A DNA stretch of 64,000 nucleotides, taken from Bordetella genomosp. 7 (lineage in GTDB: Bacteria > Pseudomonadota > Gammaproteobacteria > Burkholderiales > Burkholderiaceae_B). Position 1 is the first letter of the stretch, and every line of letters starts with the position of its first letter. The notes beneath the pieces were generated by a model, which saw only the letters and a program-made list of their open reading frames with translations, was not told the origin of the DNA and did no database searches. Below are positions 7,457 to 30,456 of this stretch, one piece after another. Location of the stretch: contig NZ_NEVK01000004.1 of assembly GCF_002261265.1 (NCBI RefSeq), positions 434,001-498,000 of the forward strand, in the 5' to 3' direction. Position numbers and translations under genes: made by a program.

Positions 7457-7894
7457 TCAGGCCGCCCGGTACAACTGCACAATGGCCTCGCCGGTGGGCG
7501 CGCGCACCAGATCTGCCAGGGTGTGCCGGTTCAGCGTGTCGAAAAAGACCTGCAGGCCGTCGGCCAACAGGCCCGACAAGCGGCACATGCCATTGAGCGC
7601 GCAAGGGGGCTGCGCGCAGTTGATGAGCTGGCCCTGGCGCTCGAGTGTGTGCACCAGGTCGCCCAGGCGGTACGCCGTGGGCGGGTGGGCCAGCCGCAAG
7701 CCGCCGCCCTTGCCCCGCGTGGTGGCCACCCAGCCCTGCTGGCCCAGGAAGTGCACCACCTTGACCATATGATTGCGCGATACCGCGAAACGCTCGGCGA
7801 TCTCGGGAATCGTCACGGGCGTCTCGCGCGCCCCCGCCTGCGTCAGGTACATCAGTACGCGCAGGCCGAAGTCGGTGTATCGGGTCAGTTGCAT
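7457..7894 (-). CDS. nsrR: NsrR, Rrf2-family nitric-oxide-sensing repressor
   Basis: NsrR is a dimeric repressor whose iron-sulfur cluster is destroyed by NO, which releases NO-detoxification genes. The 145-aa protein has an N-terminal winged helix (MQLTRYTDFGLRVLMYL, then VSRNHMVKVVHFL) typical of Rrf2 proteins. Three cysteines at 93, 98 and 104 have the 5- and 6-residue spacing of the NsrR cluster ligands, which separates it from IscR. It starts 17 bases after the hmp stop, so hmp-nsrR form an operon. The dyad upstream of hmp would then make nsrR autoregulated. Confidence 0.92.
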   Translation of the reverse strand: MQLTRYTDFGLRVLMYLTQAGARETPVTIPEIAERFAVSRNHMVKVVHFLGQQGWVATTRGKGGGLRLAHPPTAYRLGDLVHTLERQGQLINCAQPPCALNGMCRLSGLLADGLQVFFDTLNRHTLADLVRAPTGEAIVQLYRAA

Positions 7895-7911
7895 GGGGCC
7901 AGACTATACCG

Positions 7912-9129
7912 CTATGCGCCCGGCCCGCCCGTGCCGAATACTTCGGCATGGATGCGCTGGGGCGGCACGCCCAGTTCAGACAGCGCGCGGCGCTGTTCGT
8001 CCATGAACGGCAGCGGCCCGCACAAGTAGTAATCGGCGTCCGGCAGCACCGCCACATCGCGTATGGCGTGCAGATCGACCCGGCCGGAATAGTCGTAATC
8101 GATGCCGGGCTGGTCTTCGGCGCCCACCGTTTCGTAGTAAACGATCTTGCGCACGTTGGGCCGCTCTTGCGCCACGGCGTTGACGTGCTGTTTCATGGCA
8201 TGCACCGAGCGGTCGCGGCAAGCATGCACGAAACGGATCTGGCGGCCGTCGTCGCGCGCCACCAGGTGGTTCAGCATCGACACCATGGGAGTCAGCCCCA
8301 CGCCGCCGCTGAGCAGCACCACGGGCGCGGCGCGCTGGTCGTCGAGCGTGAAATCGCCCTGCGGCGGCGCCAGGTCGAGCACATCGCCTTCGTTGATGTG
8401 GTTATGCAAAACGTTCGATACGCTGCCGGCGGGCGCCCCGCCCCGGCCGCCTTCGCGCTTGACGGAGATGCGCAGGCGGCCCTGGCCCGGCGCGTCGGAC
8501 AGGCTGTATTGGCGCGGCTGCATCAACCCCAGTTCGGGCACATAGACCCGTAGCGAGATGTACTGGCCCGGCAGGTATCCGGGCACCGGGCCGCCGTCGG
8601 CGGGCGCCAGGTAAAACGAGGTGATCTCGGCACTTTCGGGCACCTTGCGTTCCACCCGGAAGGCGCGCCAGCCCGTCCAGCCGCCCTCTTTGCTGGCCGA
8701 CTGCGCATACAGGCGCGCTTCTTCGGCGATCAGCAGGTCGGCCAATTGGCCGTAGGCGGCCGCCCAGGCGGCGACGAGTTCGTCCGTGGCGGCCTCGCCC
8801 AGCACTTCGCGGATGGACGCCAGCAAGTGCTTGCCCACAATGGCGTAGTGCTCGGGGCGTATGCCCAGGCTGACATGCTTGTGCACGATGCGCGTGATGA
8901 CCGGCGCCAGCACCGACGGATCGTCAATGTGTTCCGCGTAGGCAGCCACGGCCGCCGCCAACGCCTGCTGCTGCTGCCCGCCTTCCTGGTGGCCCTGGTT
9001 GAAAACCTGCTTCAGTTCCGGGTTGTGCTGGAACATGCGCGCATAGAAATGGCAGGTAAGCGCCTCGCCATGGGTTTTCAGAACAGGCGCCGTGGACTTC
9101 ACCAGCGTGCGGACTTCCTGGCTCAACAT
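7912..9129 (-). CDS. hmp: flavohaemoglobin, nitric oxide dioxygenase
   Basis: Hmp converts NO, O2 and NAD(P)H to nitrate in the cytoplasm. The 405-aa protein has an N-terminal globin domain with distal Tyr29 and proximal His85 (HKHVSLGIRPEHY). It is followed by an FAD-binding barrel (GYLPGQYISLRVYVPE, QPRQYSLSDAP) and an NAD-binding domain (VVLLSGGVGLTPMVSML, YYLCGPLPFM). I chose the ATG at 9127-9129 because an AAAGGAG ribosome-binding site lies just upstream and the protein then starts MLSQEVRTLV, as expected for Hmp. An NsrR-like palindrome lies about 30 bases upstream, and nsrR follows in the same operon. Confidence 0.95.
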   Translation of the reverse strand: MLSQEVRTLVKSTAPVLKTHGEALTCHFYARMFQHNPELKQVFNQGHQEGGQQQQALAAAVAAYAEHIDDPSVLAPVITRIVHKHVSLGIRPEHYAIVGKHLLASIREVLGEAATDELVAAWAAAYGQLADLLIAEEARLYAQSASKEGGWTGWRAFRVERKVPESAEITSFYLAPADGGPVPGYLPGQYISLRVYVPELGLMQPRQYSLSDAPGQGRLRISVKREGGRGGAPAGSVSNVLHNHINEGDVLDLAPPQGDFTLDDQRAAPVVLLSGGVGLTPMVSMLNHLVARDDGRQIRFVHACRDRSVHAMKQHVNAVAQERPNVRKIVYYETVGAEDQPGIDYDYSGRVDLHAIRDVAVLPDADYYLCGPLPFMDEQRRALSELGVPPQRIHAEVFGTGGPGA

Positions 9130-9158
9130 GTGTACTGCTCCTTTCACGATAAAACTTG

Positions 9159-9181
9159 AACATGTATTTATTCTACATGTT
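9159..9181. promoter_or_regulatory. NsrR-like operator upstream of hmp
   Basis: The site has 8-bp arms AACATGTA (9159-9166) and TACATGTT (9174-9181) that are exact reverse complements around a 7-base AT-rich spacer. Total length is 23 bp, the length of the known 11-1-11 NsrR consensus, and the ATGTATTT half resembles it. It lies 30-52 bases before the hmp start. The gene product of nsrR sits in the controlled operon, which supports the assignment. Confidence 0.8.
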
Positions 9182-9269
9182 TAAGCGACCGCTCGCCGTG
9201 CCCGTTTGCGCAGCGCCCGCGCGCCCGGTTAAAACATGGGTTCAGCCGTATCCCATTAAAGGTATTTTC

Positions 9270-9731
9270 ATGAGCAGCAACTCGCTCAAGACCCGCTTGT
9301 CCGATGCCATCAAAGACGCCATGCGCGCGCGCGACTCGCAGCGCCTTGCTACCCTGAGGTTCCTGTCCGCCGCCATCAAGCAGAAAGAAGTCGACGACCG
9401 CCACGAACTGAGCGATGCCGACATCACGGCCGTCATCGAAAAACAGGTCAAGCAGCGACGCGAATCCATCACGGCATACGAAAAAGCCGGCCGCCTGGAA
9501 ACCGCCGCCCAGGAAACCGCCGAACTCGATGTGCTGCGCGAATTCCTGCCGCAGGCCGCCACCCCGGAAGAAATCGACGCGGCCATCAGCGCCGCGCTGG
9601 CAGCGGTGGCCGCGCAAGGCGTCAGCGGCGGCCCGGCCATGGGCAAGGTCATGGCCATCCTGAAACCCGCCCTTGCCGGCCGCGCCGACATGACGCTGGT
9701 ATCTCAGCAGGTCAAGCAGCGCCTGGTGTAG
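9270..9731 (+). CDS. GatB/YqeY-domain protein
   Basis: The 153-aa product belongs to the YqeY family, which resembles the tRNA-binding tail of the amidotransferase subunit GatB; its cellular role is not settled. The start MSSNSLKTRLSDAIKDAMRARDSQRLATLRFL and the segment VIEKQVKQRRESITAYEKAGR are diagnostic. An ATG at 9156 is open but would run through the NsrR-like dyad, so I use the ATG at 9270. YqeY genes usually lie near rpsU/dnaG; here the gene lies between hmp and dinB. Its last 20 bases overlap the dinB end in convergent orientation. Confidence 0.88.
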   Translation: MSSNSLKTRLSDAIKDAMRARDSQRLATLRFLSAAIKQKEVDDRHELSDADITAVIEKQVKQRRESITAYEKAGRLETAAQETAELDVLREFLPQAATPEEIDAAISAALAAVAAQGVSGGPAMGKVMAILKPALAGRADMTLVSQQVKQRLV

Positions 9732-10830
9732 TAGCGGGCGCAGGCGCCTCGTGGCCGAACAGGTCCAGCCGGGCCTGGCGGCCCGGCACGGCGCCCTCGT
9801 CGAAATTGCTCATCCCCACGCCGGCCAGCCTGTAGCGCGTGGCGGGCGGCAGATCCACCCGCGTGCACAACTGGCGCGCCGCCTCGGCCAGCATGGCCGC
9901 CGATTCCACGGGCCGCGCCAGCGTCAGCGTGCGCGTCAGGATGCGGAAGCGGTCTGTCTTGAGCTTGAGCACCACGGTGCGTCCGATAGCCCCCTTGCGC
10001 GTGCCCTGCTCCCATACCTTGGCCGCCAGGCGCGCAAGCGTTTCGTCCAGCGCGTCCAGCCGCAAATCGGTGGCAAAGGTGGTTTCCGCCGAAATCTGCT
10101 GCAACGGCGCATCCGGCTGCACCGGGCGCGTGTCCACGCCGCGCGACAGCTCGTGCAGCCGCAACCCATAGCGGCCGAAATGATGCTCCAGCTCTGCCGC
10201 GCTGAAACGCGCCAGGTCGCCCACCGTCTGCACGCCCAGCGCCGCCAGGCGCGACTGCATCACCTTGCCCACCCCGGGCACCTTGCGCACCGGCAAGGGC
10301 TGCAGAAACGCAAGCACCTGCGAGGGCTTGATGACGAACAGGCCATCGGGCTTGTTCCAATCGGACGCGATCTTGGCCAGGAACTTGTTGGGCGCCACCC
10401 CGGCCGAAGCGGTCAACTGCGTGGCCTGCCGGATTTCATGCCGGATCGCGCGCGCGACATCGGTGGCCGACGCCAGGCCCTGCTTGTTGGCGGTGACGTC
10501 CAGATACGCCTCGTCGAGCGACAATGGCTCGACCAGGTCGGTATGGCGCATGAAAATCTGCCGCACCTGGCGCGACACGTCGCGGTATCGGTTGAAATCG
10601 GGCGGCACATAAAGCGCCTGCGGGCACAGGCGCTGCGCGCGGGCCACCGACATCGCCGAATGCACGCCGTAGCGGCGCGCCTCGTAAGAAGCCGCACAGA
10701 CCACCGAGCGCGGCCCTTCCCAGGCCACCACTACCGGCAGCCCGCGCAGCGACGGGTTATCGCGCTGTTCGACAGACGCGTAGAACGCGTCCATGTCGAT
10801 GTGTACGATCTTGCGCATGGGCGAAGGCAT
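9712..10830 (-). CDS. dinB: DNA polymerase IV (Y-family)
   Basis: DinB is an error-prone lesion-bypass polymerase without proofreading. The 372-aa product has the catalytic motif IVHIDMDAFYASVEQ near the start and the second acidic motif LSLDEAYLDVT near residue 105. It also has the HhH region KVPGVGKVMQSRLAALGV and a C-terminal little-finger domain. The ATG at 10830 (MPSPMRK) and at 10818 (MRKIVHID) are both possible; no clear ribosome-binding site decides. I see no convincing LexA box upstream, unlike imuA. The C-terminus lacks an obvious QL.LF-type clamp motif apart from LDLFGH. It overlaps yqeY by 20 bases, tail to tail. Confidence 0.93.
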   Translation of the reverse strand: MPSPMRKIVHIDMDAFYASVEQRDNPSLRGLPVVVAWEGPRSVVCAASYEARRYGVHSAMSVARAQRLCPQALYVPPDFNRYRDVSRQVRQIFMRHTDLVEPLSLDEAYLDVTANKQGLASATDVARAIRHEIRQATQLTASAGVAPNKFLAKIASDWNKPDGLFVIKPSQVLAFLQPLPVRKVPGVGKVMQSRLAALGVQTVGDLARFSAAELEHHFGRYGLRLHELSRGVDTRPVQPDAPLQQISAETTFATDLRLDALDETLARLAAKVWEQGTRKGAIGRTVVLKLKTDRFRILTRTLTLARPVESAAMLAEAARQLCTRVDLPPATRYRLAGVGMSNFDEGAVPGRQARLDLFGHEAPAPATTPGAA

Positions 10831-10933
10831 GACAGGCAACTTGCAGTACGAAGGCCGCGGGCGCACCGGCGCAACGGCGAAAATCGGCATATTATGACGC
10901 GCTGTCAAGCACTACCTGGAAGCTGCCGTACCC

Positions 10934-11347
10934 ATGACCACGCCCGCGACGACCGACTATTTTGGCCTGACCATCCCGCTGATGAGCCTGCTGGGCCTGG
11001 TGCCCGAGCGCGTGGGGCCCGACCAGGCCCGCACCGTCCTGCCCTGGCGCGCCGACCTGACCAACAGCCGGGGCGACATCCATGGCGGCACCATGATGGC
11101 GGTGCTGGACTTCACGCTGAGCGCTGCGGCGCGGGGCGGCGAGCCCGGCCTGGGCATGGCCACGATAGACATGACCACCAGTTTCATGGCGCCCGGCACC
11201 ACCGATCTTGTCATTGAAGCGCGTTGCCTGCGGCGCGGCGCGTCGATCGCCTTTTGCGAGGGCGAAGTGCGCGGCGCCGACGGCGAACTGGTGGCCAAGG
11301 CCTCGGCCACTTTCAAGATCATCAGGCGCCGTCCGGGCGGCGATTGA
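10934..11347 (+). CDS. PaaI-type hotdog-fold thioesterase
   Basis: The 137-aa product belongs to the hotdog thioesterase family that hydrolyses acyl- or aryl-CoA thioesters in the cytoplasm. The signature [23 protein letters not shown] contains the HGG(x)xxxxxD element of PaaI/YbgC relatives. [22 protein letters not shown] forms the central strand pair. Length is normal. It diverges from dinB with a 103-base gap. The substrate cannot be told from sequence, and no CoA-pathway genes adjoin it. Confidence 0.82.
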
Positions 11348-11365
11348 ACGGCGCGCCGCAGGCGC

Positions 11366-11815
11366 CTAGCGCGGCTGCGGCAGGGGCGCGTTGTCCTGGG
11401 GACGCGGATCGCCCGGCATGTACGCCACACAAGACGGCAATCCGTAGATGATGGCTTCGCGCATGGCGCGCACGGCGTCCTCGTTCCAGATGCCGCGGCC
11501 CCACATGGCAATGTCCACCTTCGACTGGCGCTCGCCGGTGGCGGCGATCTGCACGCGGGTCACGTCATCGCCGGTGAAAGGCGCCTCGACGCGCACCAGT
11601 GCGGTTCGCGCGGTGTCATCGATCTGGCCGTGCACGGTGTACGCCCCGGTGCCCTGCAGGCAGCGCCGGGCCTGCGCCGTCGCGGCCTGGTACGCATCGC
11701 GATAACTGGATTGCACGGAAAGGCTGTCATGCAGCCCGCCGCCGCTGGAAAGACCGGTGGAGCAGCCCGCCAGCCCCAGCGCGGCCACGGCCGCCGCCAT
11801 TGCAACTCTGATCAT
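11366..11815 (-). CDS. small outer-membrane-type lipoprotein, function unknown
   Basis: The 149-aa product begins MIRVAMAAAVAALGLAGCSTG, a signal peptide with lipobox LAGC, so the mature protein is a lipoprotein with acylated Cys18. The residue after Cys is Ser, consistent with export to the outer membrane. The mature part has no domain that I recognise. It has two later cysteines (ARRCLQG and LPSCVAYMP) that could form a disulfide in the periplasm. The C-terminus is Pro/Gln-rich. The gene faces the thioesterase end to end and diverges from the S9 peptidase. Confidence 0.75.
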   Translation of the reverse strand: MIRVAMAAAVAALGLAGCSTGLSSGGGLHDSLSVQSSYRDAYQAATAQARRCLQGTGAYTVHGQIDDTARTALVRVEAPFTGDDVTRVQIAATGERQSKVDIAMWGRGIWNEDAVRAMREAIIYGLPSCVAYMPGDPRPQDNAPLPQPR

Positions 11816-11956
11816 GTCGACTCCCTGAAGTGGCTGCGATTATCCCGCAATCCGCGCGCCGCCGGCCAGCGGGCCGCCCGCGGCGGGTTCGACCACGCCG
11901 CGGCGCCTGTGGCATGATCGACAGATCGCGCCGGCCATCCGGCCCAGGAGACCGCC

Positions 11957-13828
11957 TTGCCCCATGCCTTGCCCCCGGCTGCCCAGCCGCCCCGCCAGTA
12001 CCCCCTGAAAGACTTCTTTCGCAACCCGGACCGCGGCTACTTCCGCCTGGCCGACGACGGCCGGATGCTGGGGTTCATGCAACCCGTCGCGGTGGACGGG
12101 CACCCTGCCCGCATGAACATCTTCGTCCAGCCGCTGCAGGACGGCCGCCCCACCGGCGAGCCGCGTCGCCTGACTGGCGAAACGGCGCGCGACGTCAGCG
12201 ACTTCTTCTGGAAGGGCAACGACACGGTGCTGTACCAGAAAGATTTCGGCGGCGACGAGAACTTCCACGTGCTGGCCGTCGATGCGCAAACCGGCTCGGT
12301 ACGCGACCTGACGCCGTATGAGGGCGTGCGGGCGGGCATCGAAGACGACCTGCCCGACGACCCTCGCCACGTGCTCATCAGTCACAACCAGCGCGATCCG
12401 CAGGTGTTTGACGTCTACCGGGTCGACGTGCAGACGGGGGCTGCGGTGCTGGTGGCGCAGAACCCGGGCAACGTGGTGGGCTGGCAAACCGACCACGCCG
12501 GCAGGGTGCGCGCCGCGCTTGCCAGCGATGGCCTGGACACGACGCTACTGTATCGCGACGATGAAGCCGAGCCGCTGCGCCCGCTGATCACGACCGATTA
12601 CCGCACCAGCGTCACGCCGCTGTTTTTCACCTTCGACGACCGGGGCTTTTATGCCTTGAGCAACCGCGGGCGGGACAAGCTTGCCCTGGTCATCATAGAC
12701 CCTGCGCGTCCCGACCAGGAAGAACTGGTATACGCCACGGACGAAGTCGACCTGGACGCGGCCATGTACTCGCGCAAGCGCCGCGTGCTGACCCTGGCCG
12801 CCTACCAGACCGACAAACCGCGCCGCCACTACTTCGACGACCAGACCCAGTCGCTGTACCGACAGCTCGAAAGCCTGCTGCCCGGCTACGACGTCGCCCT
12901 GCAAGGCTGGAACCGCGACGAAGACACCTATATCGTCGCGGCCTATAACGACCGCACACCGGGTTCACGCTACCTGTTCCGCGCAGGCACGGACGCGCTG
13001 CACAGGCTCGCCGAGATCAACCCCGCCATACCCGAGGCCGACATGTCGCCGGTGCGGCCCGTGCGTTACACCAGCCGCGACGGCCTGGAAATACACGGCT
13101 ACCTGACCCTGCCCGCCGGCCGCCCGGCGCGCGGCCTGCCCTGCATTGTCAACCCGCACGGCGGCCCCTGGGCGCGCGACGGATGGGGCTACAACCCCGA
13201 AGTACAATTCCTTGCCAATCGCGGCTTCTGCGTGCTGCAGATCAACTTCCGCGGCTCTACCGGCTATGGCCGCCGCTTCTGGGAAGCCGGCTTCGGGCAA
13301 TGGGGCCTGGCCATGCAGGACGACATCACCGACGGCGTGCACTGGCTCATCGGGCAAGGCATTGCCGATCCGGCGCGCATCGGCATCTATGGCGGCAGCT
13401 ACGGCGGGTATGCGGCGCTGGCCGGCGTGGCGTTCACGCCCGAGGTGTACGCCGCGGCGGTCGACTATGTCGGCGTGTCCAATCTGTTCACCTTCATGAA
13501 CACCATTCCGCCGTACTGGAAACCGCTGCTGGCCAAGATGTACGACATGGTGGGCCATCCCGAGCGCGATCGCGAACGCCTGGCGGCCACGTCTCCCGCG
13601 TTGCACGTCGAGCGCATCCGCGCGCCGCTGCTGATCGCCCAGGGGGCCCAGGACCCGCGCGTCAACAAGGCCGAAAGCGACCAGGTGGTCCAGGCATTGC
13701 GGTCGCGCGGCGTCGAGGTCCAGTATCTGGTCAAAGACAACGAAGGGCACGGATTTCACAATGACGAAAACAAGTTCGAGTTCTACGCCGCCATGGAGGC
13801 GTTTTTTGTAGAACACCTGCAACCATAA
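11957..13828 (+). CDS. S9-family prolyl-oligopeptidase-type serine peptidase
   Basis: The 623-aa product has an N-terminal seven-bladed propeller (about residues 20-370) and a C-terminal alpha/beta-hydrolase peptidase domain. The nucleophile lies in YGGSYGGYAALAG near residue 480, the acid in QGAQDPRVNKAESD near 565 and the histidine in NEGHGFHNDENKFEFY near 597. Such enzymes cleave short peptides, often acyl-peptides or after proline. No signal peptide is seen, so a cytoplasmic location is likely. The start is TTG at 11957, six bases after GGAG; no ATG fits better. It follows the divergent lipoprotein gene. Confidence 0.88.
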   Translation: MPHALPPAAQPPRQYPLKDFFRNPDRGYFRLADDGRMLGFMQPVAVDGHPARMNIFVQPLQDGRPTGEPRRLTGETARDVSDFFWKGNDTVLYQKDFGGDENFHVLAVDAQTGSVRDLTPYEGVRAGIEDDLPDDPRHVLISHNQRDPQVFDVYRVDVQTGAAVLVAQNPGNVVGWQTDHAGRVRAALASDGLDTTLLYRDDEAEPLRPLITTDYRTSVTPLFFTFDDRGFYALSNRGRDKLALVIIDPARPDQEELVYATDEVDLDAAMYSRKRRVLTLAAYQTDKPRRHYFDDQTQSLYRQLESLLPGYDVALQGWNRDEDTYIVAAYNDRTPGSRYLFRAGTDALHRLAEINPAIPEADMSPVRPVRYTSRDGLEIHGYLTLPAGRPARGLPCIVNPHGGPWARDGWGYNPEVQFLANRGFCVLQINFRGSTGYGRRFWEAGFGQWGLAMQDDITDGVHWLIGQGIADPARIGIYGGSYGGYAALAGVAFTPEVYAAAVDYVGVSNLFTFMNTIPPYWKPLLAKMYDMVGHPERDRERLAATSPALHVERIRAPLLIAQGAQDPRVNKAESDQVVQALRSRGVEVQYLVKDNEGHGFHNDENKFEFYAAMEAFFVEHLQP

Positions 13829-19061: not shown

Positions 19062-19817
19062 TCACGGCCTGGATTGCGATTGCCTCAGGATGAAGCTGCA
19101 GGCGGCGACCAGCAGTCGCGCGCATTCGGCCATTGTGCCTTCCATGCGGTGCTTCGGGCCGGCCACCGCCACCGCGAAGGTCTCTTTGTTGAGCACCAGC
19201 GATGACGCCACGGCCCACACGTCGTCCACGTTCTCGCCCAGCGTGCGGTAGTACCCGAGCTTGCGGCCCTGTTGCACATCCGCCAGCAGCGCTTCGGGAT
19301 CGGTGAGCGTGGCGAGCGTGATTCCGGGCAGCGCATGGCCCTGCAGCCAGTCCTTCAGTTCGGCGTCTTTCACGCATCCGAGCATCGCCTTGCCTATCGA
19401 ACTGGAATGCAGCGGCTTCAACTCCCCGGGCTTGGCCGAATAACGGATCGAATGGGTGCCTTCCACTACCTGCAGGTACACCACGGCGTCGCCCTGGCGC
19501 TTGCCCAGGATGACCGTCTCGCGCGAAGCGTCGCGCAGCCGTTCGAGCACGGGCGTCATGCGCTCGACGAACGGGTCTTTGGCGACGATGTCGCGCGCCA
19601 CATCGAACATGCGCTTGGTGGGATACAGCGAGCGCGGGCGCGTCAGGGAATACAGATAACCCCGGGCCGTCAAGGTGCCCACGATGGCGTGGCAGGTGCT
19701 CTTGGGCAGGCCCGCCACATCCGCCAGTTCGGTCAGGGACAGGGGACGCTGGCTGGCCTGGAAGGCTTCGAAGATGTCGAGCAGGCGATCGACGGCGGTG
19801 ACATTGCTGGAGGACAT
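19062..19817 (-). CDS. IclR-family transcriptional regulator, divergent from the B12 mutase operon
   Basis: The 251-aa product has an N-terminal winged helix (TAVDRLLDIFEAFQASQRPLSLTELADVAGLPKSTCHAIVGTL is its extent) and a C-terminal GAF-like effector domain (KPGELKPLHSSSIGKAMLG). IclR proteins bind a small acid or a related effector and commonly control the divergent operon. I use the ATG at 19817; an upstream in-frame ATG gives an atypical, arginine-rich start. The 205-base gap to the mutase operon holds a GTTC-N8-GAAC dyad. Control of that operon is inferred from position. Confidence 0.88.
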   Translation of the reverse strand: MSSSNVTAVDRLLDIFEAFQASQRPLSLTELADVAGLPKSTCHAIVGTLTARGYLYSLTRPRSLYPTKRMFDVARDIVAKDPFVERMTPVLERLRDASRETVILGKRQGDAVVYLQVVEGTHSIRYSAKPGELKPLHSSSIGKAMLGCVKDAELKDWLQGHALPGITLATLTDPEALLADVQQGRKLGYYRTLGENVDDVWAVASSLVLNKETFAVAVAGPKHRMEGTMAECARLLVAACSFILRQSQSRP

Positions 19818-19914
19818 GGCGGGGGCTCCGGATGCATGAGGGGCTCGCGCGAAATTCGGCGGGCTGAACAAAAAGCGGCGAATCGGGCCTGCGGCGGCCA
19901 CACGGACGCTATTT

Positions 19915-19930
19915 GTTCAGAATACCGAAC
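19915..19930. promoter_or_regulatory. GTTC-N8-GAAC dyad, candidate IclR operator
   Basis: The site reads GTTCAGAATACCGAAC and lies between the IclR gene and the divergent mutase operon. GTTC...GAAC half-sites are common in IclR-family operators, although many have a shorter spacer. The rest of the gap 19818-20022 contains no cobalamin-riboswitch element that I can recognise. Confidence 0.45.
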
Positions 19931-20022
19931 TTTTGTCCTTGATGCAGAAAAATTGCGCGCCTAGCATGCGAGTACGGTCTGCTCACGCATGACGCGGCCG
20001 ACCTAAAAGACGGAGACACGAC

Positions 20023-20802
20023 TTGCCAGGCACCGAAGACGTACTCATAGACCGCCAGCCATCCGGGGCATGCCGGATCACCATCAACCGCCCTGCCAAG
20101 CACAACGCGCTGGCGCGCCCCCTGCTCGACGCCGTGGGGCAGGCCGTGACGGACGCCGGCGCCCACCCCGATACCCGCCTTATCGTATTGAGCGGCGCGG
20201 GTGACCGTTATTTCGCCGCCGGCGGCGACCTGCGCGACCTGGCCACCGTGCGCGACGAAGCGGCCACGCTGGCCATGGCGGGCCAGGCCCGCGCGGCGCT
20301 GGACGCCGTGCGCGAGTGCCCGGTGCCGGTCGTGGCCTATCTGAACGGTGACGCCATCGGCGGCGGCGCCGAACTGGCCCTGGCCTGCGACCTGCGTCTG
20401 CAGGCCAGCCACGCGCGCATCGGCTTTGTGCAGGCGCGCCTGGCGATCACGTCGGCCTGGGGCGGCGGAACGGACTTGTGCCGGCTGGTCGGCGGAGCGC
20501 GCGCCATGCGCATGATGGCGCGCAGCGAGCTTGTGGATGCGCAGCAGGCCCTGGCCTGGGGGCTGGCCGATGCCGTCATCGCCGACGGGCCCGATGGCGC
20601 CGACATACAGGCCTTTCTGCGCCCCATGCTTGCCTGCCCGCCGCAGGTGCTGCGCGGTATCAAGGCCCAGGTCCGGGCGTGGCGCCAGGGCGCCGCCTAC
20701 GACGCCGCGCGCGCCACCGAGCAACAGCATTTGTTAAGCACCTGGCTGCATGGCGACCATTGGCGCGCCAGCGAGCAGATCCTATCGAAAGGAAAACAAT
20801 GA
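20023..20802 (+). CDS. crotonase-superfamily protein, decarboxylase-like, lacking hydratase glutamates
   Basis: This is the first gene of the mutase operon (259 aa, TTG start at 20023; no ATG precedes it in frame). It has the crotonase oxyanion-hole segments AAGGDLRDL and IGGGAELALACDLR. The two catalytic glutamates of enoyl-CoA hydratase appear to be replaced: Gln137 stands where Glu144 of rat hydratase lies and Arg163 where Glu164 lies. The SAWGGG segment resembles the SWGG of ethylmalonyl-CoA decarboxylase. A role as malonyl-type acyl-CoA decarboxylase, like YgfG/ScpB of E. coli, is therefore more likely than hydration. That role is inference from residues and neighbours; the alignment is from memory. 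The stop overlaps the mutase start (ATGA). Confidence 0.75.
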   Translation: MPGTEDVLIDRQPSGACRITINRPAKHNALARPLLDAVGQAVTDAGAHPDTRLIVLSGAGDRYFAAGGDLRDLATVRDEAATLAMAGQARAALDAVRECPVPVVAYLNGDAIGGGAELALACDLRLQASHARIGFVQARLAITSAWGGGTDLCRLVGGARAMRMMARSELVDAQQALAWGLADAVIADGPDGADIQAFLRPMLACPPQVLRGIKAQVRAWRQGAAYDAARATEQQHLLSTWLHGDHWRASEQILSKGKQ

Positions 20803-22412
20803 GTAGCCACCCCCAGCCCGAACGGCCGCCACGCCTGCATTCGGTCAATCGAAGCGGCATCGAGATTCCCGTCAGCGTCGGCCCCGATTCGGTCGATCCG
20901 TCCCGCATCGGGATGCCCGGCCAGTACCCGTACACACGGGGCATATTTCCGGACGGCTACCAGGGCCGCCTGTGGACCTTCCGCCAGTATTCCGGCTTCG
21001 GCACCGCCGAAGAATCGAACGCGCGCTACAAGTTCCTGCTGGAACAGGGCCAGACGGGCCTTTCGGTGGCGCTGGACCTGCCCACTCAGTGCGGGCTCGA
21101 TCCCAGCGACCCGATGGCGCGGCCCGAGATCGGCAAGGTCGGCGTTTCGCTGTCCAATCTCAGCGAGGCCGAAATCCTGTTCGACGGCCTGGACCTGTCG
21201 CGCATCTCGACCTCGTTCACCATCAACGGCACGGCGGCCATCATCTATGCGATGTACCTTGCGGTGGCCGACAAGCAGAACGTGCCGCGCAGCAAGCTCA
21301 CGGGCACGATCCAGAACGACATCCTGAAGGAATACGTGGCGCGCGGCACCTGGATTTTTCCGGTGCGGCCATCCATGCGCCTGATCGCCGACACCATCCT
21401 GTATTCGAACGATGTATCGCCGCGCTTCAACCCCATCAGCATTGCGGGGGCGCACGTGCGCGACGCGGGCGCGACGGCCGCCGAGGAAATGGCCTATACC
21501 ATCGCCAACGGGCTGGCCTATGTGGACGAACTGCGCGAACGCGGCGGCGATATCGAAAAGTTCGCCAAGCGCCTGTCGTTCTTCTTCTATGTCCATATGG
21601 ACTTCTTTGAAGAGATCGCCAAGTTCCGCGCGGGACGCAGGCTGTGGGCGCGCCTGATGAAAGAACGCTATGGCGTGCAGGATCCCAAGGCCCAGCATTT
21701 CCGCTTCGGCGTGGTGTGCGGCGGCTCTTCGCTGGTGGCGCCGCAACCCTACAACAACGTGGTGCGCGTCACCGTGGAAACCATGGCGGCCGTGCTGGGC
21801 GGCGCGCAGTCGATCTTCACGTGCGCGCTGGACGAGGCCTACCAGATACCCACCGAGTTTTCAGCCGAGCTGGCGCTGCGCACCCAGCAGATCATTGCCT
21901 ACGAAAGCGGCATCGCCAACTCCGTGGACCCGCTGGGTGGCAGCTACTTTCTTGAGCAGCACACCGAACGCATGGAAGAAAAGATCGAACAGGTGATGGC
22001 CGAGATCGACGAGTATGGCGGCGTCATCCGCGCCATCGAAGACGGCTGGATACAGCTGCGCCTGGCCGAGCGGGGGCTGGAACGCAAGCTGGCTATCGAC
22101 GCCGGCGAGCAGGTCATCGTGGGGCAGAACCATTTCGCCAGGCCGGGCGACGAAACCAAGATCGGCGACGTGTTCACGCTGGACCCCACTGTGGCGCAGC
22201 GCGCGCTCGAGAAATTCCAGCGCGTGCTGGATACGCGCAGCCAGGCCGCGGTGGATGCGTCGCTGGCCAAGCTCGCCGGCGCCGCGGCCAAAGACCGCGA
22301 AAACCTGATGCCTTACCTGGTCGATTGCTGCCATGCCTACGCCACCGTCGGAGAGATGGTGGCATGCCTGAAAAAAGAATGGGGTGAATTCAAGGAGCCC
22401 GTCAATCTATGA
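20799..22412 (+). CDS. B12-dependent acyl-CoA mutase, large (substrate) subunit, divergent
   Basis: The 537-aa protein is the catalytic barrel of a methylmalonyl-CoA-mutase-type enzyme with a separate B12 subunit. GRLWTFRQYSGFGTAEESN and LTGTIQNDILKEYVARGT are family signatures. In P. shermanii numbering, Tyr89 (here 64), Arg207 (182), His244 (219), Arg283 (258) and Ser285 (260) are kept, which favours a carboxylated acyl-CoA substrate. Unusually, positions of His328, Gln330 and Asn366 are Gly304, Val306 and Cys342. The usual GYDSDHP loop reads GLDPSDP, and VAIDSI reads VSLSNL. It is thus not a standard methylmalonyl-CoA mutase by sequence. The alignment is from memory. The gene is coupled by ATGA at both ends. 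Confidence 0.85.
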   Translation: MSSHPQPERPPRLHSVNRSGIEIPVSVGPDSVDPSRIGMPGQYPYTRGIFPDGYQGRLWTFRQYSGFGTAEESNARYKFLLEQGQTGLSVALDLPTQCGLDPSDPMARPEIGKVGVSLSNLSEAEILFDGLDLSRISTSFTINGTAAIIYAMYLAVADKQNVPRSKLTGTIQNDILKEYVARGTWIFPVRPSMRLIADTILYSNDVSPRFNPISIAGAHVRDAGATAAEEMAYTIANGLAYVDELRERGGDIEKFAKRLSFFFYVHMDFFEEIAKFRAGRRLWARLMKERYGVQDPKAQHFRFGVVCGGSSLVAPQPYNNVVRVTVETMAAVLGGAQSIFTCALDEAYQIPTEFSAELALRTQQIIAYESGIANSVDPLGGSYFLEQHTERMEEKIEQVMAEIDEYGGVIRAIEDGWIQLRLAERGLERKLAIDAGEQVIVGQNHFARPGDETKIGDVFTLDPTVAQRALEKFQRVLDTRSQAAVDASLAKLAGAAAKDRENLMPYLVDCCHAYATVGEMVACLKKEWGEFKEPVNL

Positions 22413-22855
22413 ACACGCCTACCCAAGACAAGCCCGCGCTGGCCGGCAAGCGCATCCTGGTCGGCAAGCCCGGGCTGGACGGCCACGACATCGGCGCCAA
22501 GATCGTCGCGCTCAGCCTGCGCAATGCGGGGGCCGAAGTCATCTACACCGGCCTGCGCCGCACGCCGCGGCAAATTGCCCAGGTGGCGGTCGATGAAGGC
22601 GTGGACGCAGTGGGCCTGAGCATTCTGTCGGGCAGTCACCATGAACTCACGCGCGAAGTCATCGCGCAATTGCGCGAGCTCGGCGCCACAGATGTCCGGG
22701 TCTTTCTGGGCGGAACGATTCCGGCCAGCGACCATCCCGCGCTGCTGGAACTGGGCGTGGCCGCCATCTTCACTGCCGACATGCCCCTGGAGCAGATGAT
22801 CGGCATACTCGCGCAGCGCCTGCATGAGGCCGGCGCGGCAAGGAACCCCGCATGA
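22409..22855 (+). CDS. B12-binding small subunit of the acyl-CoA mutase
   Basis: The 148-aa protein is the cobalamin-binding domain that partners the preceding barrel subunit. It contains RILVGKPGLDGHDIGAKIVA with the D-x-H-x-x-G motif (His26 is the lower cobalt ligand), LSILSGSHHELT and VFLGGTIP, which together form the Rossmann-like pocket for the nucleotide tail. Split large and small subunits also occur in isobutyryl-CoA and 2-hydroxyisobutyryl-CoA mutases and in archaeal methylmalonyl-CoA mutases. The start overlaps the large-subunit stop and the stop overlaps the CoA-transferase start, each by ATGA. Confidence 0.92.
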   Translation: MNTPTQDKPALAGKRILVGKPGLDGHDIGAKIVALSLRNAGAEVIYTGLRRTPRQIAQVAVDEGVDAVGLSILSGSHHELTREVIAQLRELGATDVRVFLGGTIPASDHPALLELGVAAIFTADMPLEQMIGILAQRLHEAGAARNPA

Positions 22856-23979
22856 ACGCGCCGCTGGCGGGCATCCGCATCATTGAAGTCGGCCATATGC
22901 TGGCCGGCCCCTATTGCGGCCTGATGCTGGCCGACATGGGGGCGGAAGTCATCAAGATCGAGCCGCGCGAAGGCGATATCGGCCGCACCATCAGCCCGCA
23001 CAGTATCGGCCCGCACAACGCATACTTCGCCAGCCTGAACCGCAACAAGAAAAGCATCGTGCTGGACCTGGCCAGCGCAGCAGGCCAGGCCGCGCTGGGC
23101 CGCATCGCCGCCCGTTCGCATGCGCTCGTCACCAATTTGCGGCCATCGGCGATACGCAAGCTGGGATTGACCTACGACGCGCTGCGGATCCACAACGACA
23201 AACTGGTGTGCGTGGCGCTCACCGGCTACGGACTCGAGGGCCCGTATTCCGAAAACCCGGCGTACGACTACGTGATCCAGGCGATGACGGGCGTCATGGC
23301 CATCACGGGCGAACCCGACGCGCCGCCGGCCAAGGCCGGCTATTCGGCGGTGGACAACTCGGCGGGGCTGGTGGCCGCGCTGGGCCTGCTTGCCAAGGTC
23401 GTGCAAGGCCGGGGCGGCCAGGTGGACGTATCGATGTATGACGTGATGCTGTCCCAGCTCAACTACCTGGCGGGCGCGGCTTTGAATGCGGGCGAGACCA
23501 TCGAGCGCCTGCCGGCGTCTTCGCACCCCTATGTTGTGCCGGCGCAGTTGTTCCCCACTGCCGACGGATGGCTGGTGCTGTTTATCACGCACGACAAATT
23601 CTGGCGCATTTTCTGCCACGAGATCGGACGCACGGACTGGGTCGAACATCCGCATTTCGCCACAATGGCGGCCCGCCGCGCGCACCGCGCCGAAGTCGTG
23701 ACGGCGATCACCCATGAACTGGCCGGCGCGACGGCGGCGCAATGGGCGGACCGCCTGGCGCCGCTGGGCATCGTCGCGGCCCGGGTGGGCACGCTGAACG
23801 AAGCGCTGGACAGCGACATCGCGGCCGCTCGCAAGCTGGTGGTGCAATTGGGCGACGGCAGCCTGCCGTTGCGGGCGGTCGCCAGCCCCGTGCGTTTCGA
23901 AGACCAGGAGGCCCCACGCGCGCTGCCGCCGTTGCTGGACGAACACCGCGACGAAATCATGAGCTGGGCCGGCCCATGA
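22852..23979 (+). CDS. CaiB/BaiF class III CoA-transferase
   Basis: Class III transferases move CoA between acyl-CoA and a free carboxylic acid. The 375-aa product has the family start LAGIRIIEVGHMLAGPYCGLMLADMGAEVIKIEP. The catalytic aspartate is probably Asp139 in NPAYDYVIQAMTG, and GRGGQVDVSMYDVML is also typical. In E. coli the Sbm operon uses an unrelated class I transferase (YgfH/ScpC) for the matching step. Here the enzyme probably loads CoA onto the imported acid, with succinyl-CoA or the product acyl-CoA as donor; this is inference. It is coupled by ATGA to the mutase small subunit and to the GTPase gene. Confidence 0.88.
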   Translation: MNAPLAGIRIIEVGHMLAGPYCGLMLADMGAEVIKIEPREGDIGRTISPHSIGPHNAYFASLNRNKKSIVLDLASAAGQAALGRIAARSHALVTNLRPSAIRKLGLTYDALRIHNDKLVCVALTGYGLEGPYSENPAYDYVIQAMTGVMAITGEPDAPPAKAGYSAVDNSAGLVAALGLLAKVVQGRGGQVDVSMYDVMLSQLNYLAGAALNAGETIERLPASSHPYVVPAQLFPTADGWLVLFITHDKFWRIFCHEIGRTDWVEHPHFATMAARRAHRAEVVTAITHELAGATAAQWADRLAPLGIVAARVGTLNEALDSDIAAARKLVVQLGDGSLPLRAVASPVRFEDQEAPRALPPLLDEHRDEIMSWAGP

Positions 23980-24881
23980 CAGCCACCCCGCCCCTGGATC
24001 GTCTTGCCCTGGGCCGCACGCTGACGCGGCTGGCCAACGCCAGCCCGCTCGAACTGGCGGCGCAGCCGCCCCGGCAACCCGCCCACGCGGCGCGCCGTAT
24101 CGGCATTACGGGCGCGCCCGGCGCGGGCAAGAGCACCCTGCTGGGACGGCTGGCCCTGGCCCGCCTGGGCGGCGGGCGCCTGGGCGCGCTTGCTGTCGAC
24201 CCCAGCAGCCCCAAGAGCGGCGGCGCCATCCTGGGCGACCGGGTACGCATGGACGAACTGGCGGGCATCGACGAGCTGTACATCCGTTCCCTGGGGTCGC
24301 GCCGCACGTCCGACGGGCTGGCCGACAACCTGCCCGAAATGCTGGACGCCATGGATGACTTCGGATTCGTCGAAGTGCTGCTGGAAACCGTGGGCGTGGG
24401 CCAGGCCGAATATGCCGCGCGCATGCACGTGGACACCCTGGTGCTGGTGCTGCTGCCCGACAGCGGGGACACGGTGCAAGCCATGAAGGCGGGCATCATG
24501 GAAATGGCCGACATCTTTGTCGTCAGCAAAGCCGACCTGCCCGGCGCGCGCAAGATGGCCGCCGACATCAAGCGCATTGCCTCGGCCATGCGCCATGCGG
24601 CCGACGCCTGGGTGCCGCCGGTGCTGCTGGTGGCGCAAGACCAGCCGGATTCGATCCAGGCCCTGTCCGACGCGATCGACCGCCACCAGGCATGGCTGGC
24701 GTCCACGCGCCGGCACGAAGCCATCCGCCAGCAGCGCGCCCGCTACCGCCTGCGCCGCCTGCTGGAGATCCGGGCAGCCGAATTCATCGCCACACAGGAC
24801 AATGCATTTTTTGCCCTGCCCCTGCCCGACCAGCTGGCGCGCCTGCTGAGCGGCCTGGCACAACCGCACGGCCAGTCATAA
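23976..24881 (+). CDS. meaB: MeaB/ArgK-type G-protein chaperone of the B12 mutase
   Basis: MeaB-type GTPases load and protect adenosylcobalamin in acyl-CoA mutases. The 301-aa product has Walker A GAPGAGKST (46-54), LAVDPSSPKSGGAILGDRVRM (switch region) and LLETVGVGQAEYAAR. The guanine-recognition motif reads SKAD rather than NKAD. Length is slightly short for the family (about 310-330). It overlaps the CoA-transferase stop (ATGA). A dedicated chaperone inside the operon supports the view that the divergent mutase still uses adenosylcobalamin. Confidence 0.92.
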   Translation: MTATPPLDRLALGRTLTRLANASPLELAAQPPRQPAHAARRIGITGAPGAGKSTLLGRLALARLGGGRLGALAVDPSSPKSGGAILGDRVRMDELAGIDELYIRSLGSRRTSDGLADNLPEMLDAMDDFGFVEVLLETVGVGQAEYAARMHVDTLVLVLLPDSGDTVQAMKAGIMEMADIFVVSKADLPGARKMAADIKRIASAMRHAADAWVPPVLLVAQDQPDSIQALSDAIDRHQAWLASTRRHEAIRQQRARYRLRRLLEIRAAEFIATQDNAFFALPLPDQLARLLSGLAQPHGQS

Positions 24882-24907
24882 GGCCGGCAACACCAAAGGA
24901 GAGACAC

Positions 24908-25873
24908 ATGCGTTACATACCCTGGGCCCTGGGCCTGCTGCTGTCGGCCGCGCTGGGCGCACCCGCGGCCGCCGTGCAAGAATATCCCGACAAACCCGTG
25001 CGCATCATTGTGCCGCAGACCCCGGGCGGCGCATCGGATACGCTGGCGCGCATCATCGGCCAGCAGCTGGGCGACAAATGGAAGCAGACCGTGGTCATCG
25101 AAAACCGCGCGGGCGCCGGCGGCAACGTGGGCATGGAAGCGGTGCTCGCGGCCCCGCCCGACGGCTATACCCTGCTGATGAGCTATGTCGGCACGCAGGC
25201 CATCAACGGCGCGCTCTACCAGCAGCTGAATTTCGACCCCGGCGCCGATTTCGCGCCGGTGGCCACGCTGGCCACGCTGCCTTTCGTGCTGGTCACGCGG
25301 CCCGATTCACCCTACAAAAGCGTGGACGACGTGGTGCAGGCGGCCAAGAAAGGCAACCTGACCTACGGTTCGGCAGGCAACGGCTCGGTCAACCACCTGC
25401 TGGGCGAAATGTTCAGCAGCGCCGCGCAGGTGCCGCTGCAGCACGTGCCTTACCGAGGCGCCGCGCCCGCCCTGCAGGACCTGCTGGGCGGACGCATCGA
25501 CATGGTGTTCACCAGCCTGCCGTCGGTAGCCGGCTCAATCAAGGGCGGCGCGCTGCGCGCCCTGGCGGTCACCAGCGCCCAGCGGGCCAAGTCGTTCCCG
25601 GATATCCCCACCATCGCCGAGGCAGGCTTCAAGAGCTTCGACGTCAACCCCTGGTTCGGCCTGATGGCGCCCAAGGGCACGCCGCCGGCGCGCATCACGC
25701 GCATCAACGAGACCGTCAATGCGGCGTTGGCGGATCCGAAGGTCGTGGAAAGCTTCAACGCGCAAGGGGCCGAGCCGTTTGCCACCAGCCCCGCCGAATT
25801 CGAGAAAATCCTTGCGGCGGACGTAAAGCGTTGGGGAGAAGTGGTGCGCGCCTCGGGCGCCCGGGTCGACTGA
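24908..25873 (+). CDS. Bug/TctC-family periplasmic solute-binding protein
   Basis: The 321-aa protein has a signal peptide (MRYIPWALGLLLSAALGAPAA, cut near residue 22) and a mature Bug fold beginning EYPDKPVRIIVPQTPGGASDTLAR. VVIENRAGAGGNVGMEAV, VPYRGAAPALQDLLGGRIDMVF and PWFGLMAPKGTP are typical. Bug proteins bind small, often carboxylated compounds and are greatly expanded in Bordetella and relatives. It starts 26 bases after meaB with a GGAG site, so it ends the operon. It probably captures the acid that the CoA-transferase activates. No TctA/TctB membrane genes adjoin it. Confidence 0.9.
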   Translation: MRYIPWALGLLLSAALGAPAAAVQEYPDKPVRIIVPQTPGGASDTLARIIGQQLGDKWKQTVVIENRAGAGGNVGMEAVLAAPPDGYTLLMSYVGTQAINGALYQQLNFDPGADFAPVATLATLPFVLVTRPDSPYKSVDDVVQAAKKGNLTYGSAGNGSVNHLLGEMFSSAAQVPLQHVPYRGAAPALQDLLGGRIDMVFTSLPSVAGSIKGGALRALAVTSAQRAKSFPDIPTIAEAGFKSFDVNPWFGLMAPKGTPPARITRINETVNAALADPKVVESFNAQGAEPFATSPAEFEKILAADVKRWGEVVRASGARVD

Positions 25874-28950: not shown

Positions 28951-29064
28951 TTGCATTGGCAGCGCGGCGGCACTAAATTAAAGTTGCCAGGCGTTCTGAC
29001 ACCCATGCGTGCGAAGCCAGGCAAGAGCGCCCCACACTCATCGCGAGTTGGGGCGCTCTTTATT
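28951..29064 (+). ncRNA. candidate small RNA with own promoter and terminator
   Basis: A promoter-like pair, TTGCAT (28951-28956) and TAAATT (28974-28979), has the ideal 17-base spacer. About 45 bases after the -10 element begins a strong hairpin: 12-bp stem AAGAGCGCCCCA (29023-29034) with TGGGGCGCTCTT (29049-29060), extended inward by ACTC/GAGT, then TATT. No open reading frame that looks real lies between. The predicted transcript is about 75-80 nt. Alternatively this is an attenuated leader of hpaR, which starts 74 bases later. Only sequence signals support it. Confidence 0.4.
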
Positions 29065-29137
29065 GTGCGCGCCCCCGGGGGCGCGCCGCCTGCGCATTTC
29101 ACCGGTGCATGCCGCTTATCTTGCTAACATGCCGCGC

Positions 29138-29578
29138 ATGAGCCAGTTCCACCATCGCAACCTGCCCCATCTGCTGCTGCATGCGCGCGAAACCCTGATG
29201 GCGCATTTCCGGCCCATCCTGCATGCCGCGGGCATCACCGAACAGCAATGGCGCGTATTGCGCACCCTCAGCGAACTGGAACCCATGGAGCCCAACCAGA
29301 TCGCGGCGCAATGCCAGATCCTGCGCCCCAGCCTGACGCGCATGCTGATCGGCATGGAGCAATCCGGCCTGATCGAACGCACGCGCTCCAGCGCCGACCA
29401 ACGCCGGCAGGACATCACCCTGACCCCCAAGGCCCGGCGGCTCATCGACACCCTGCGGCCGCAAGTGGACGCCTGCTACGAACGCCTGGAAGCCTCATTG
29501 GGCAAAGCGCGCCTGGAGCGGCTCTACCACGACATCGACGCCGCCATCGAACATATCAAGCGCCACCCGCCTGCATAG
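29138..29578 (+). CDS. hpaR: HpaR/HpcR, MarR-family repressor of homoprotocatechuate genes
   Basis: HpaR represses the 4-hydroxyphenylacetate/homoprotocatechuate meta-cleavage genes until the aromatic acid binds. The 146-aa product has the subfamily signature RETLMAHFRPILHAAGITEQQWRVLRTL, then CQILRPSLTRMLIGMEQSGLI (recognition helix) and SSADQRRQDITLTPKA (wing), closely like E. coli HpaR. The ATG at 29138 gives the usual start (MSQFHHRNLPHLLL); one at 29129 is possible. It is followed 40 bases later by a 24-bp palindrome and then by hpaH and hpaI in the same direction. Confidence 0.88.
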   Translation: MSQFHHRNLPHLLLHARETLMAHFRPILHAAGITEQQWRVLRTLSELEPMEPNQIAAQCQILRPSLTRMLIGMEQSGLIERTRSSADQRRQDITLTPKARRLIDTLRPQVDACYERLEASLGKARLERLYHDIDAAIEHIKRHPPA

Positions 29579-29618
29579 CCCGCCATGGCGGGCTTGCCAG
29601 GGGTGGCGGCATTCCCCA

Positions 29619-29642
29619 TAATAGATAACGTGTTAACTATTA
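29619..29642. promoter_or_regulatory. 24-bp palindrome, candidate HpaR operator
   Basis: The halves TAATAGATAACG and TGTTAACTATTA are reverse complements at 20 of 24 positions (TAATAG/CTATTA and TAAC/GTTA pair). The site ends 13 bases before the hpaH ATG. It directly follows hpaR, and MarR-family operators are AT-rich palindromes of this size, so control of hpaHI by HpaR is likely. Confidence 0.75.
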
Positions 29643-29655
29643 CACGGATATCCCG

Positions 29656-30456
29656 ATGCTCGACCTCGCCACCACCAAGGCCCTGGCCGCCCGCCTGCAC
29701 GAGGCGGAACGCAGCCGCACGCAGATCCGCCAGATTTCGCTGGACCACCCCGACATCACGATCGACGATGCCTACGCCATACAGCAGCAGTGGCTCGAGA
29801 TCAAACTCGCCGAAGGCCGGGTGGTCAAGGGCCATAAAATCGGCCTGACCTCGCGCGCCATGCAGCAGGCGTCGCAGATCGACGAACCCGATTCGGGCAC
29901 CCTGCTCGACGACATGTTCTTTAACGAGGGCGAGATCCCATCCAGCCGCTTCATCGCGCCGCGCCTGGAAGTCGAGCTGGCGTTCATCCTGGCCAAGCCG
30001 CTGCGCGGCCCCGGCGTGACCCTGGCCGACGTGTACAACGCCGTGGACTACGTCGTGCCTGCGCTGGAAATCATCGATGCCCGCTCGCACATGATCGACC
30101 CCGACACCAAGCGGCCGCGCAAAGTCTTCGATACCATCGCCGATAACGCCGCCAACGCGGGCGTCGTGCAAGGCGGCCGTCCGGTGCGCATGCACGACCT
30201 GGACCTGCGCTGGGCGGGGGCCATCATGACGCGCAACGCCATCATCGAAGAAACCGGGCTGGCCGCCGGAGTGCTGAACCATCCCGCCAATGGCGTCGTA
30301 TGGCTGGCCAACCGGCTGGGCCCGCGCGGCGTCACGCTCGAGCCCGGCCAGATCATCCTGTCCGGCTCTTTCACCCGGCCGGTGTTCGCCAAGCCGGGCG
30401 ATACTTTTGCCGTCGACTACGGACCGCTGGGCACGGTCAACTGCCGCTTCGTATAA
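29656..30456 (+). CDS. hpaH: 2-oxo-hept-3-ene-1,7-dioate hydratase
   Basis: HpaH adds water to 2-oxohept-3-enedioate to form 4-hydroxy-2-oxoheptanedioate, the penultimate step of homoprotocatechuate meta-cleavage. The 266-aa protein belongs to the fumarylacetoacetase-type hydratases. The metal ligands are the two Glu in [11 protein letters not shown] and the Asp in [25 protein letters not shown] is also typical. It is coupled to hpaI with a 10-base gap. The candidate HpaR operator lies directly upstream. The earlier-step genes (hpaD, hpaE, hpaF, hpaG) are not in this window. Confidence 0.93.

Follow-up and report, generated by a model that had tools for sequence, protein, structure and literature searches.

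A conserved B12-dependent acyl-CoA mutase cassette in Bordetella genomosp. 7, a candidate route for substituted succinates

Architecture and conservation of the cassette

Bordetella genomosp. 7 carries, within a stretch of 64,000 nucleotides that was analysed as a whole (hereafter the window), a compact block of five enzyme genes built around a split B12-dependent acyl-CoA mutase. We read this cassette as a catabolic route for an imported substituted (branched) succinate, with a probability of about 0.6. The five genes lie on the plus strand (20023–24881). The first encodes a crotonase-fold enzyme, a probable substituted-malonyl-CoA decarboxylase (20023–20802, TTG start; PF00378, 135 bits). 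It is followed by the large, substrate-binding subunit of the mutase (20799–22412; PF01642, 629 bits; TIGR00641, 627 bits against a cut-off of 304) and the small, cobalamin-binding subunit (22409–22855; PF02310; TIGR00640 above cut-off; DGHD motif in GLDGHDIG). A class III (CaiB/BaiF-type) CoA-transferase, the probable activator of a dicarboxylic acid (22852–23979; PF02515, 360 bits), and a MeaB-type G-protein chaperone of the mutase (23976–24881; PF03308, 214 bits; TIGR00750, 215.8 bits, under its cut-off of 240.75) complete the block. A gene for a Bug/TctC-type periplasmic receptor follows on the same strand (24908–25873; PF03401, 260 bits), and an IclR-family regulator gene (19062–19817, minus strand; PF01614/PF09339) is divergent, its top NCBIfam row being BhcR with 128 bits, below the cut-off of 350. 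Families were assigned by Pfam and NCBIfam profile matches, with bit scores compared with curated cut-offs, and the matches are clear for all seven genes. With its catalytic domain and a cobalamin-binding domain bearing DxHxxG, the split protein belongs to the B12-dependent acyl-CoA mutase superfamily, and its large subunit is the sole PF01642 match in the 4.13-Mb genome. Likewise, the CoA_transf_3 domain places the transferase in class III.

ATGA overlaps occur at all four junctions between the enzyme genes, while the Bug gene starts 26 bases past meaB and is not coupled by an overlap. A first-pass annotation had described this series of crotonase, split mutase, class III transferase and MeaB genes, together with the downstream Bug gene and the divergent iclR gene, and the whole arrangement is borne out. 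The annotation had also proposed a neighbourhood search, in which the five-gene order recurred. The comparison set, in which the window is one locus, holds 27 loci whose mutase reaches about 69% identity; 24 of them have a block unbroken by a contig end, and the order counts rest on these. The order crotonase–mutA–mutB–transferase–meaB is complete in 22 of the 24, which come from alpha-, beta- and gammaproteobacteria, and one of the 22 (L146) has two extra genes between mutB and the transferase gene. In the remaining two, meaB was not found in the block of L129, and the transferase was not found in that of L180, where an AMP-binding ligase gene lies close by. In-frame ATGA, GTGA or TTGA overlaps were seen at junctions one to four in 19/23, 19/23, 15/22 and 16/21 of the loci scored, the near copy L135 being excluded. 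Because they recur at four junctions in most scored loci, the coupling is not a chance feature of a single genome. The counts do not represent independent cases, since L135 nearly duplicates L134, a number of cassette rows come from a shared genus or family, and L128 has the same protein as L171.

The five-gene block is rare (4/398 sampled genomes of the phylum, the window's own genome being included in this and the following genome counts). A cassette-type mutase is present in three of the nine searched genomes of the genus, in 14 of 268 family genomes at 82% identity or more, and in three of 300 order genomes at 69% or more, one of these being split over two contig pieces. In a plasmid collection, seven of 385 matching records exceed 70% mutase identity and the next listed record has 48.5%. 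Judged by this identity gap, the cassette mutases are a discrete group. Carriers include plasmid records of Diaphorobacter, Marinobacter, Paraburkholderia and Sulfitobacter, and Billgrantia is a further carrier among the matches listed in a contig scan. The Marinobacter plasmid cassette (L133, 5001–16919) sits between IS5/IS630 genes and an IS21 pair, and these insertion sequences are a possible means of transfer.

The importer beside the cassette varies. A Bug relative of 63% identity or more lies 3' of meaB in Diaphorobacter and at eight other same-family loci. The Sulfitobacter cassette has an annotated TAXI-TRAP importer, L003 and L182 have NMT1_3-family receptors that are alike by eye, and TRAP importer genes adjoin the cassette in Paraburkholderia and in L148. 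An MFS gene (PF07690) occurs in L143, with relatives in L003 and L145, and TctA and TctB genes in L129. Of the 24 unbroken loci, 19 have an iclR gene close to the cassette. A cassette mutase is absent from six of the nine genomes searched in the genus, and in four of these six the corresponding slot was examined. In G303, G305 and G307 (slots L213, L212 and L214), it holds divergent IclR and Bug genes only, none of the five enzymes giving a match, and in G300 no match to any of the seven genes was found. In trees with midpoint roots and no unlinked outgroup, the IclR and Bug proteins of the three congeners fall inside groups otherwise linked to cassettes, a placement that speaks for loss of the enzyme block rather than its late insertion. 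The Bug rows of L146 and L149 were excluded from the Bug tree, and the G305 IclR match spans two frames, so that its tree row is a mechanical open reading frame with a long branch. Since importers vary and these congeners keep the IclR–Bug pair alone, the five enzyme genes are the unit. For the same reasons, the dedicated receptor of the first-pass annotation is not strictly dedicated, and Bug is probably a frequent partner instead.

The mutase clade and its substrate pocket

In a 55-row tree, 16 cassette mutases group together (100/100), and five actinobacterial rows are sister to them (100/99). This clade is separate from E. coli ScpA, from the human and Propionibacterium methylmalonyl-CoA mutases and from the 2-hydroxyisobutyryl-CoA mutase group, although, with several long or weak branches deeper in the tree, its wider placement is unsure. 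The full-length methylmalonyl-CoA mutase equivalog PRK09426 reaches 539 bits against a cut-off of 876, a shortfall that stems partly from the split subunits. Among solved structures, the top match is 2-hydroxyisobutyryl-CoA mutase (PDB 4r3u, 493 bits), which likewise has a separate large subunit. That enzyme acts on a monocarboxylic acyl-CoA. At the positions of cassette Tyr89, Ala116 and Arg207, the letters read in 4r3u are Ile, Asp and Gln, which we take to be its Ile90, Asp117 and Gln208.

Residues were compared in the numbering of the Propionibacterium methylmalonyl-CoA mutase across 25 cassette, 5 actinobacterial and 113 other mutase rows. The cassette fragments L130 and L131, the row L091 and, among the others, L167, L170, L174, L175 and L179 were left out, and the duplicates L112–L124, whose genes are identical to those of L137–L149, were dropped from the pool beforehand. 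Tyr89, Thr195, Gln197, Arg207, His244 and Glu370 are retained in 25/25 cassette and 5/5 actinobacterial rows. Tyr89 and Arg207 presumably bind the free carboxylate of the substrate, and His244 and Gln197 its thioester. Because the carboxylate-binding pair is retained, the substrate of the cassette mutase is likely a dicarboxylyl-CoA.

Six further positions are invariant in all 30 cassette and actinobacterial rows as Ala241, Ala243, Asp247, Gly328, Val330 and Phe364. Gly328 occurs in one of the 113 other mutases and the remaining five letters in none, the usual letters there being Ser, Tyr, Glu, His, Gln and His. At position 366, the 30 rows have Cys or Ala, whereas 102 of the 113 have Asn. Hence all 25 cassette rows share Tyr89, Arg207 and His244 with methylmalonyl-CoA mutases, but carry Ala, Gly, Val and Phe in place of Tyr243, His328, Gln330 and His364. 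Of the altered residues, Tyr243, Gln330 and Asn366 are assumed to adjoin the substrate or the adenosyl group. Replacement of Tyr243 by Ala, of His328 by Gly and of Gln330 by Val suggests space for a substituent that is absent from succinyl-CoA, and the simplest reading of the whole pattern is a dicarboxylyl-CoA substrate with extra room alongside.

Related arrangements were also seen with other mutases. L185 (G011:C33, about 5173–13145) is a parallel cassette without a crotonase, whose mutase belongs to another subclade (42%) and is accompanied by mutB (50%, in L093), MeaB (44%), a class III transferase (39%), an IclR regulator (50%) and, by eye, a TRAP-like receptor. Orphan B12 mutases also stand near Bug receptors in L186, where a class III transferase is added, and in L188, where MeaB and an AMP-binding ligase are; they hint at several uncharacterised pathways built on such mutases.

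The crotonase, acid activation and competing pathways

The first glutamate of crotonase-type enoyl-CoA hydratases (in GGGAE) is retained in 22/22 cassette rows, and the second is replaced in all 22 (Gln in 19, His in 3), so that none has the two-glutamate pair. These positions we take to be Glu144 and Glu164 of the hydratase. E. coli ScpB, an annotated methylmalonyl-CoA decarboxylase, shows the same pattern, with the first glutamate present and Pro at the second site; the two proteins are 27% identical over 170 residues. Because the first glutamate is kept and the second lost as in ScpB, the favoured reading of the crotonase is a substituted-malonyl-CoA decarboxylase. A WGG stretch past the second site is present in 20 of the 22 rows (not in L134 and L135) and is reminiscent of eukaryotic ethylmalonyl-CoA decarboxylase ECHDC1. 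No literature pairing ECHDC1 with methylmalonyl-CoA decarboxylase was found. The top NCBIfam matches of the crotonase are enoyl-CoA hydratases, all far under cut-off.

For the transferase, the top NCBIfam rows are succinate-glutarate (240 bits), mesaconate (210) and oxalate (204) CoA-transferases, again all far under cut-off, and its PDB relatives include formyl-CoA transferase and succinate-hydroxymethylglutarate CoA-transferase. The AMP-binding ligase gene in L180, where the transferase was not found, would be expected if the transferase step activates the acid. Cobalamin adenosyltransferase genes lie near five cassettes (L133 by annotation, L139, L146 and L148 by clustering with it, and L182 by PF01923), and one is present elsewhere in the window's genome. 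In six loci (L132, L140–L142, L144 and L147), genes for a leucine-type ABC receptor and an isopenicillin-N-synthase-like (2-oxoglutarate-type) oxygenase are close by, accompanied by a short-chain dehydrogenase/reductase gene in five of the six, as also in L143, and by an aldehyde dehydrogenase gene in four. L180 has aldehyde dehydrogenase, short-chain dehydrogenase/reductase and cytochrome P450 genes as neighbours. A class II aldolase gene is near four cassettes (L131, L134, L135 and L146), that of L146 standing between the mutB and transferase genes. Such neighbours would suit an oxidation that turns a side group into a carboxylate before the cassette acts, although they do not name the acid.

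The same oxygenase-bearing loci and aldolase genes would also be in keeping with a crotonase that does not decarboxylate but works as a hydratase, hydrolase or lyase on either side of the mutase step, the mutase substrate then being an unsaturated or hydroxylated dicarboxylyl-CoA. Every row retains one catalytic glutamate, and some one-glutamate crotonases are lyases. We nevertheless regard this as rather unlikely, given that the second glutamate is Gln or His in 22/22 rows and that the E. coli decarboxylase is likewise a one-glutamate enzyme. Furthermore, a reversible mutase would need an irreversible pull, which decarboxylation would give and hydration would not.

The first-pass annotation had assigned to the cassette the job of the E. 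coli Sbm/Scp pathway, and this assignment is not supported. As a set, the gene kinds do match scpA-argK-scpB-scpC, in which genes for a mutase, a MeaB-type GTPase, a crotonase-type decarboxylase and a CoA-transferase adjoin, the crotonase glutamates are patterned as in ScpB, and the cassette mutase is the only one of its family in the genome. Ordinary methylmalonyl-CoA metabolism would run from succinyl-CoA through methylmalonyl-CoA to propionyl-CoA, or in reverse for propionate assimilation. We consider it very improbable here. The mutase is 44% identical to ScpA, which falls in another clade, and its pocket positions are unlike those of every methylmalonyl-CoA mutase reference compared; the identity of the crotonase to ScpB is low as well. 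Moreover, G742 and G827, from another class of the same phylum, have besides the cassette mutase a separate large mutase that groups with the P. shermanii methylmalonyl-CoA mutase. Propionate metabolism is disfavoured because no methylmalonyl-CoA epimerase scores above cut-off in the genome (top match 33.9 bits against 114.95). With a methylcitrate-synthase-type gene present (526.7 bits against a cut-off of 421.3) and the mutase off the methylmalonyl-CoA mutase clade, a canonical propionate role was rejected as unlikely. According to one study, the E. coli mutase makes the R form whereas such decarboxylases use the S form, and propionate production from glucose needed an added epimerase (PMC5512728). 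If the cassette is complete, its decarboxylase must accept the product of its own mutase. Two structural contrasts with E. coli that the annotation had drawn are confirmed: ScpC belongs to the AcetylCoA_hydro family (PF02550/PF13336) and not to PF02515, and the scp mutase is a single gene of 2145 bases instead of split subunits. The scp mutase also has other pocket residues, and no receptor gene is found among the scp genes.

Methylsuccinate is one substrate that the substituted-succinate reading would allow, with methylsuccinyl-CoA converted to ethylmalonyl-CoA by a reverse ethylmalonyl-CoA mutase reaction and then decarboxylated to butyryl-CoA. The crotonase motif recalls ECHDC1, and Gly328 is common to the cassette and to L177, the lone candidate ethylmalonyl-CoA mutase row, which we take as such by its motif. 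L177, however, retains Tyr243 and Gln330, both changed in the cassette. In the tree it falls away from the cassette, but on a long branch. Since methylsuccinyl-CoA can be oxidised directly to mesaconyl-CoA (PMC5798300), the B12 detour would be unnecessary. Among the matches listed in our literature search (titles and starts of abstracts), no tie of methylsuccinate to such genes was found, and we regard this substrate as unlikely.

Proposed pathway, precedents and significance

In the proposed route, whose reactions, direction and substrate class are predicted, the acid would enter through whichever importer adjoins the cassette, here with the Bug receptor. The class III transferase would load it with CoA, the donor being probably succinyl-CoA or acetyl-CoA, and the two-subunit adenosyl-B12 mutase, maintained by MeaB, would move the thioester, turning a substituted succinyl-CoA into a substituted malonyl-CoA. 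Decarboxylation by the crotonase would make the sequence irreversible, and the resulting acyl-CoA would pass to beta-oxidation. IclR probably controls the unit. The overall logic of the first-pass annotation, in which an imported dicarboxylate is activated with CoA, rearranged and decarboxylated, is thus upheld by Tyr89/Arg207, the transferase families, the gene order and the ScpB-like glutamates, whereas the Sbm role is not. Tentatively, the mutase might be the first of a new specificity class that acts on substituted succinyl-CoA in an enlarged pocket and bypasses carbons blocking beta-oxidation, in a mobile block that uses the importer or activating enzyme at hand. An example would be the conversion of 2,2-dimethylsuccinyl-CoA to isopropylmalonyl-CoA and then to isovaleryl-CoA.

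The direction could also be the opposite, with a substituted malonate imported, the mutase forming a substituted succinyl-CoA and the crotonase serving as a side or repair enzyme. Such mutases are reversible, and the NCBIfam families matched by the transferase suggest that class III enzymes accept diverse dicarboxylates. A decarboxylase coupled to the mutase by gene overlap would however vie with it for one CoA ester, and we find this alternative improbable.

Several points weigh against the substituted-succinate route. The slot in G303, G305 and G307 retains its IclR (79–80% over the longest piece) and Bug (78–83%) genes, and because these three congeners keep both without the enzyme genes, receptor and regulator may serve something else. 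One-glutamate crotonases also include hydratase/lyases. The loss of Tyr243 is not unique, as other divergent mutases show Asn, Cys, Phe, Gln or Gly, and the changes at Gln330 and Asn366 might concern the adenosyl site rather than the substrate pocket. The actinobacterial relatives have no crotonase directly beside the mutase or transferase; in L006, a luciferase-like gene (11964–12920; PF00296, tested in this locus) lies between mutB and the transferase gene, with similar genes in L005 and L008, and is perhaps an alternative way to complete the pathway. Finally, no assay of any cassette member was found. In our literature search, whose coverage leaves out most subscription papers, no paper was recognised as describing the cassette, and none was found with at least four of the terms methylmalonyl-CoA mutase, CaiB, enoyl-CoA hydratase, IclR and tctC. 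Searches on dimethylsuccinate or quaternary carbons with mutases, and on mutase residue roles, returned nothing relevant.

Comparable chemistry has been described. In indoleacetate degradation by Aromatoleum aromaticum, the phenylsuccinyl-CoA transferase IaaL, the mutase IaaGH and the decarboxylating dehydrogenase IaaF (PMC8360864) likewise combine a CoA-transferase acting on a substituted succinate, a mutase reaction to a substituted malonyl-CoA and loss of the malonyl carboxylate, and the binding protein IaaM takes part in uptake. In that pathway an acyl-CoA dehydrogenase couples decarboxylation to oxidation, whereas the cassette has a crotonase; the comparison is of the described reactions. 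No indoleacetate (iaa) cluster was recognised by eye among ten extra mutase loci. Alkylsuccinates formed by fumarate addition undergo carbon-skeleton rearrangement, decarboxylation and beta-oxidation (PMC3653055) in an anaerobic alkane pathway, whose likeness to the cassette lies in the described reactions. MatB/MatQ and ActD, from matlystatin and actinonin biosynthesis, are proposed to convert hexylmalonyl-CoA to pentylsuccinyl-CoA (PMC5719088). They resemble the cassette, again by description only, in the separate mutase subunits of MatB/MatQ and the substituted malonyl-CoA/succinyl-CoA pair, but are biosynthetic, run in the opposite direction and work with a carboxylase and an epimerase. 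The proposed chemistry already has precedents in the indoleacetate and alkylsuccinate routes, on which the cassette would be a variation.

In the window, the cassette is flanked by an aldo/keto reductase gene (PF00248) and an N-acylglucosamine-epimerase-type gene (PF07221). A promoter scan of 19780–20100 gave no match, and a repeat scan gave many weak pairs. Between iclR and the crotonase gene, upstream of iclR, lies an imperfect inverted repeat (19852–19932; 26-base arms, 77% complementary, 29-base spacing), which may be chance or an operator. Further downstream (29009–30456), a MarR-like gene and a 2-oxo-hepta-3-ene-1,7-dioate hydratase-like gene, both identified by eye, are perhaps the start of a homoprotocatechuate cluster.

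To our knowledge, only a handful of substrates of B12 acyl-CoA mutases are known. This conserved cassette, complete in itself and with a mutase pocket of its own kind, occurs in bacteria such as Diaphorobacter, Paraburkholderia and Billgrantia and gives a direct handle on finding a new one. The cassette could explain the degradation of branched dicarboxylic acids and, if the proposed route is true, would add a compact enzyme set for branched acyl-CoA building blocks.

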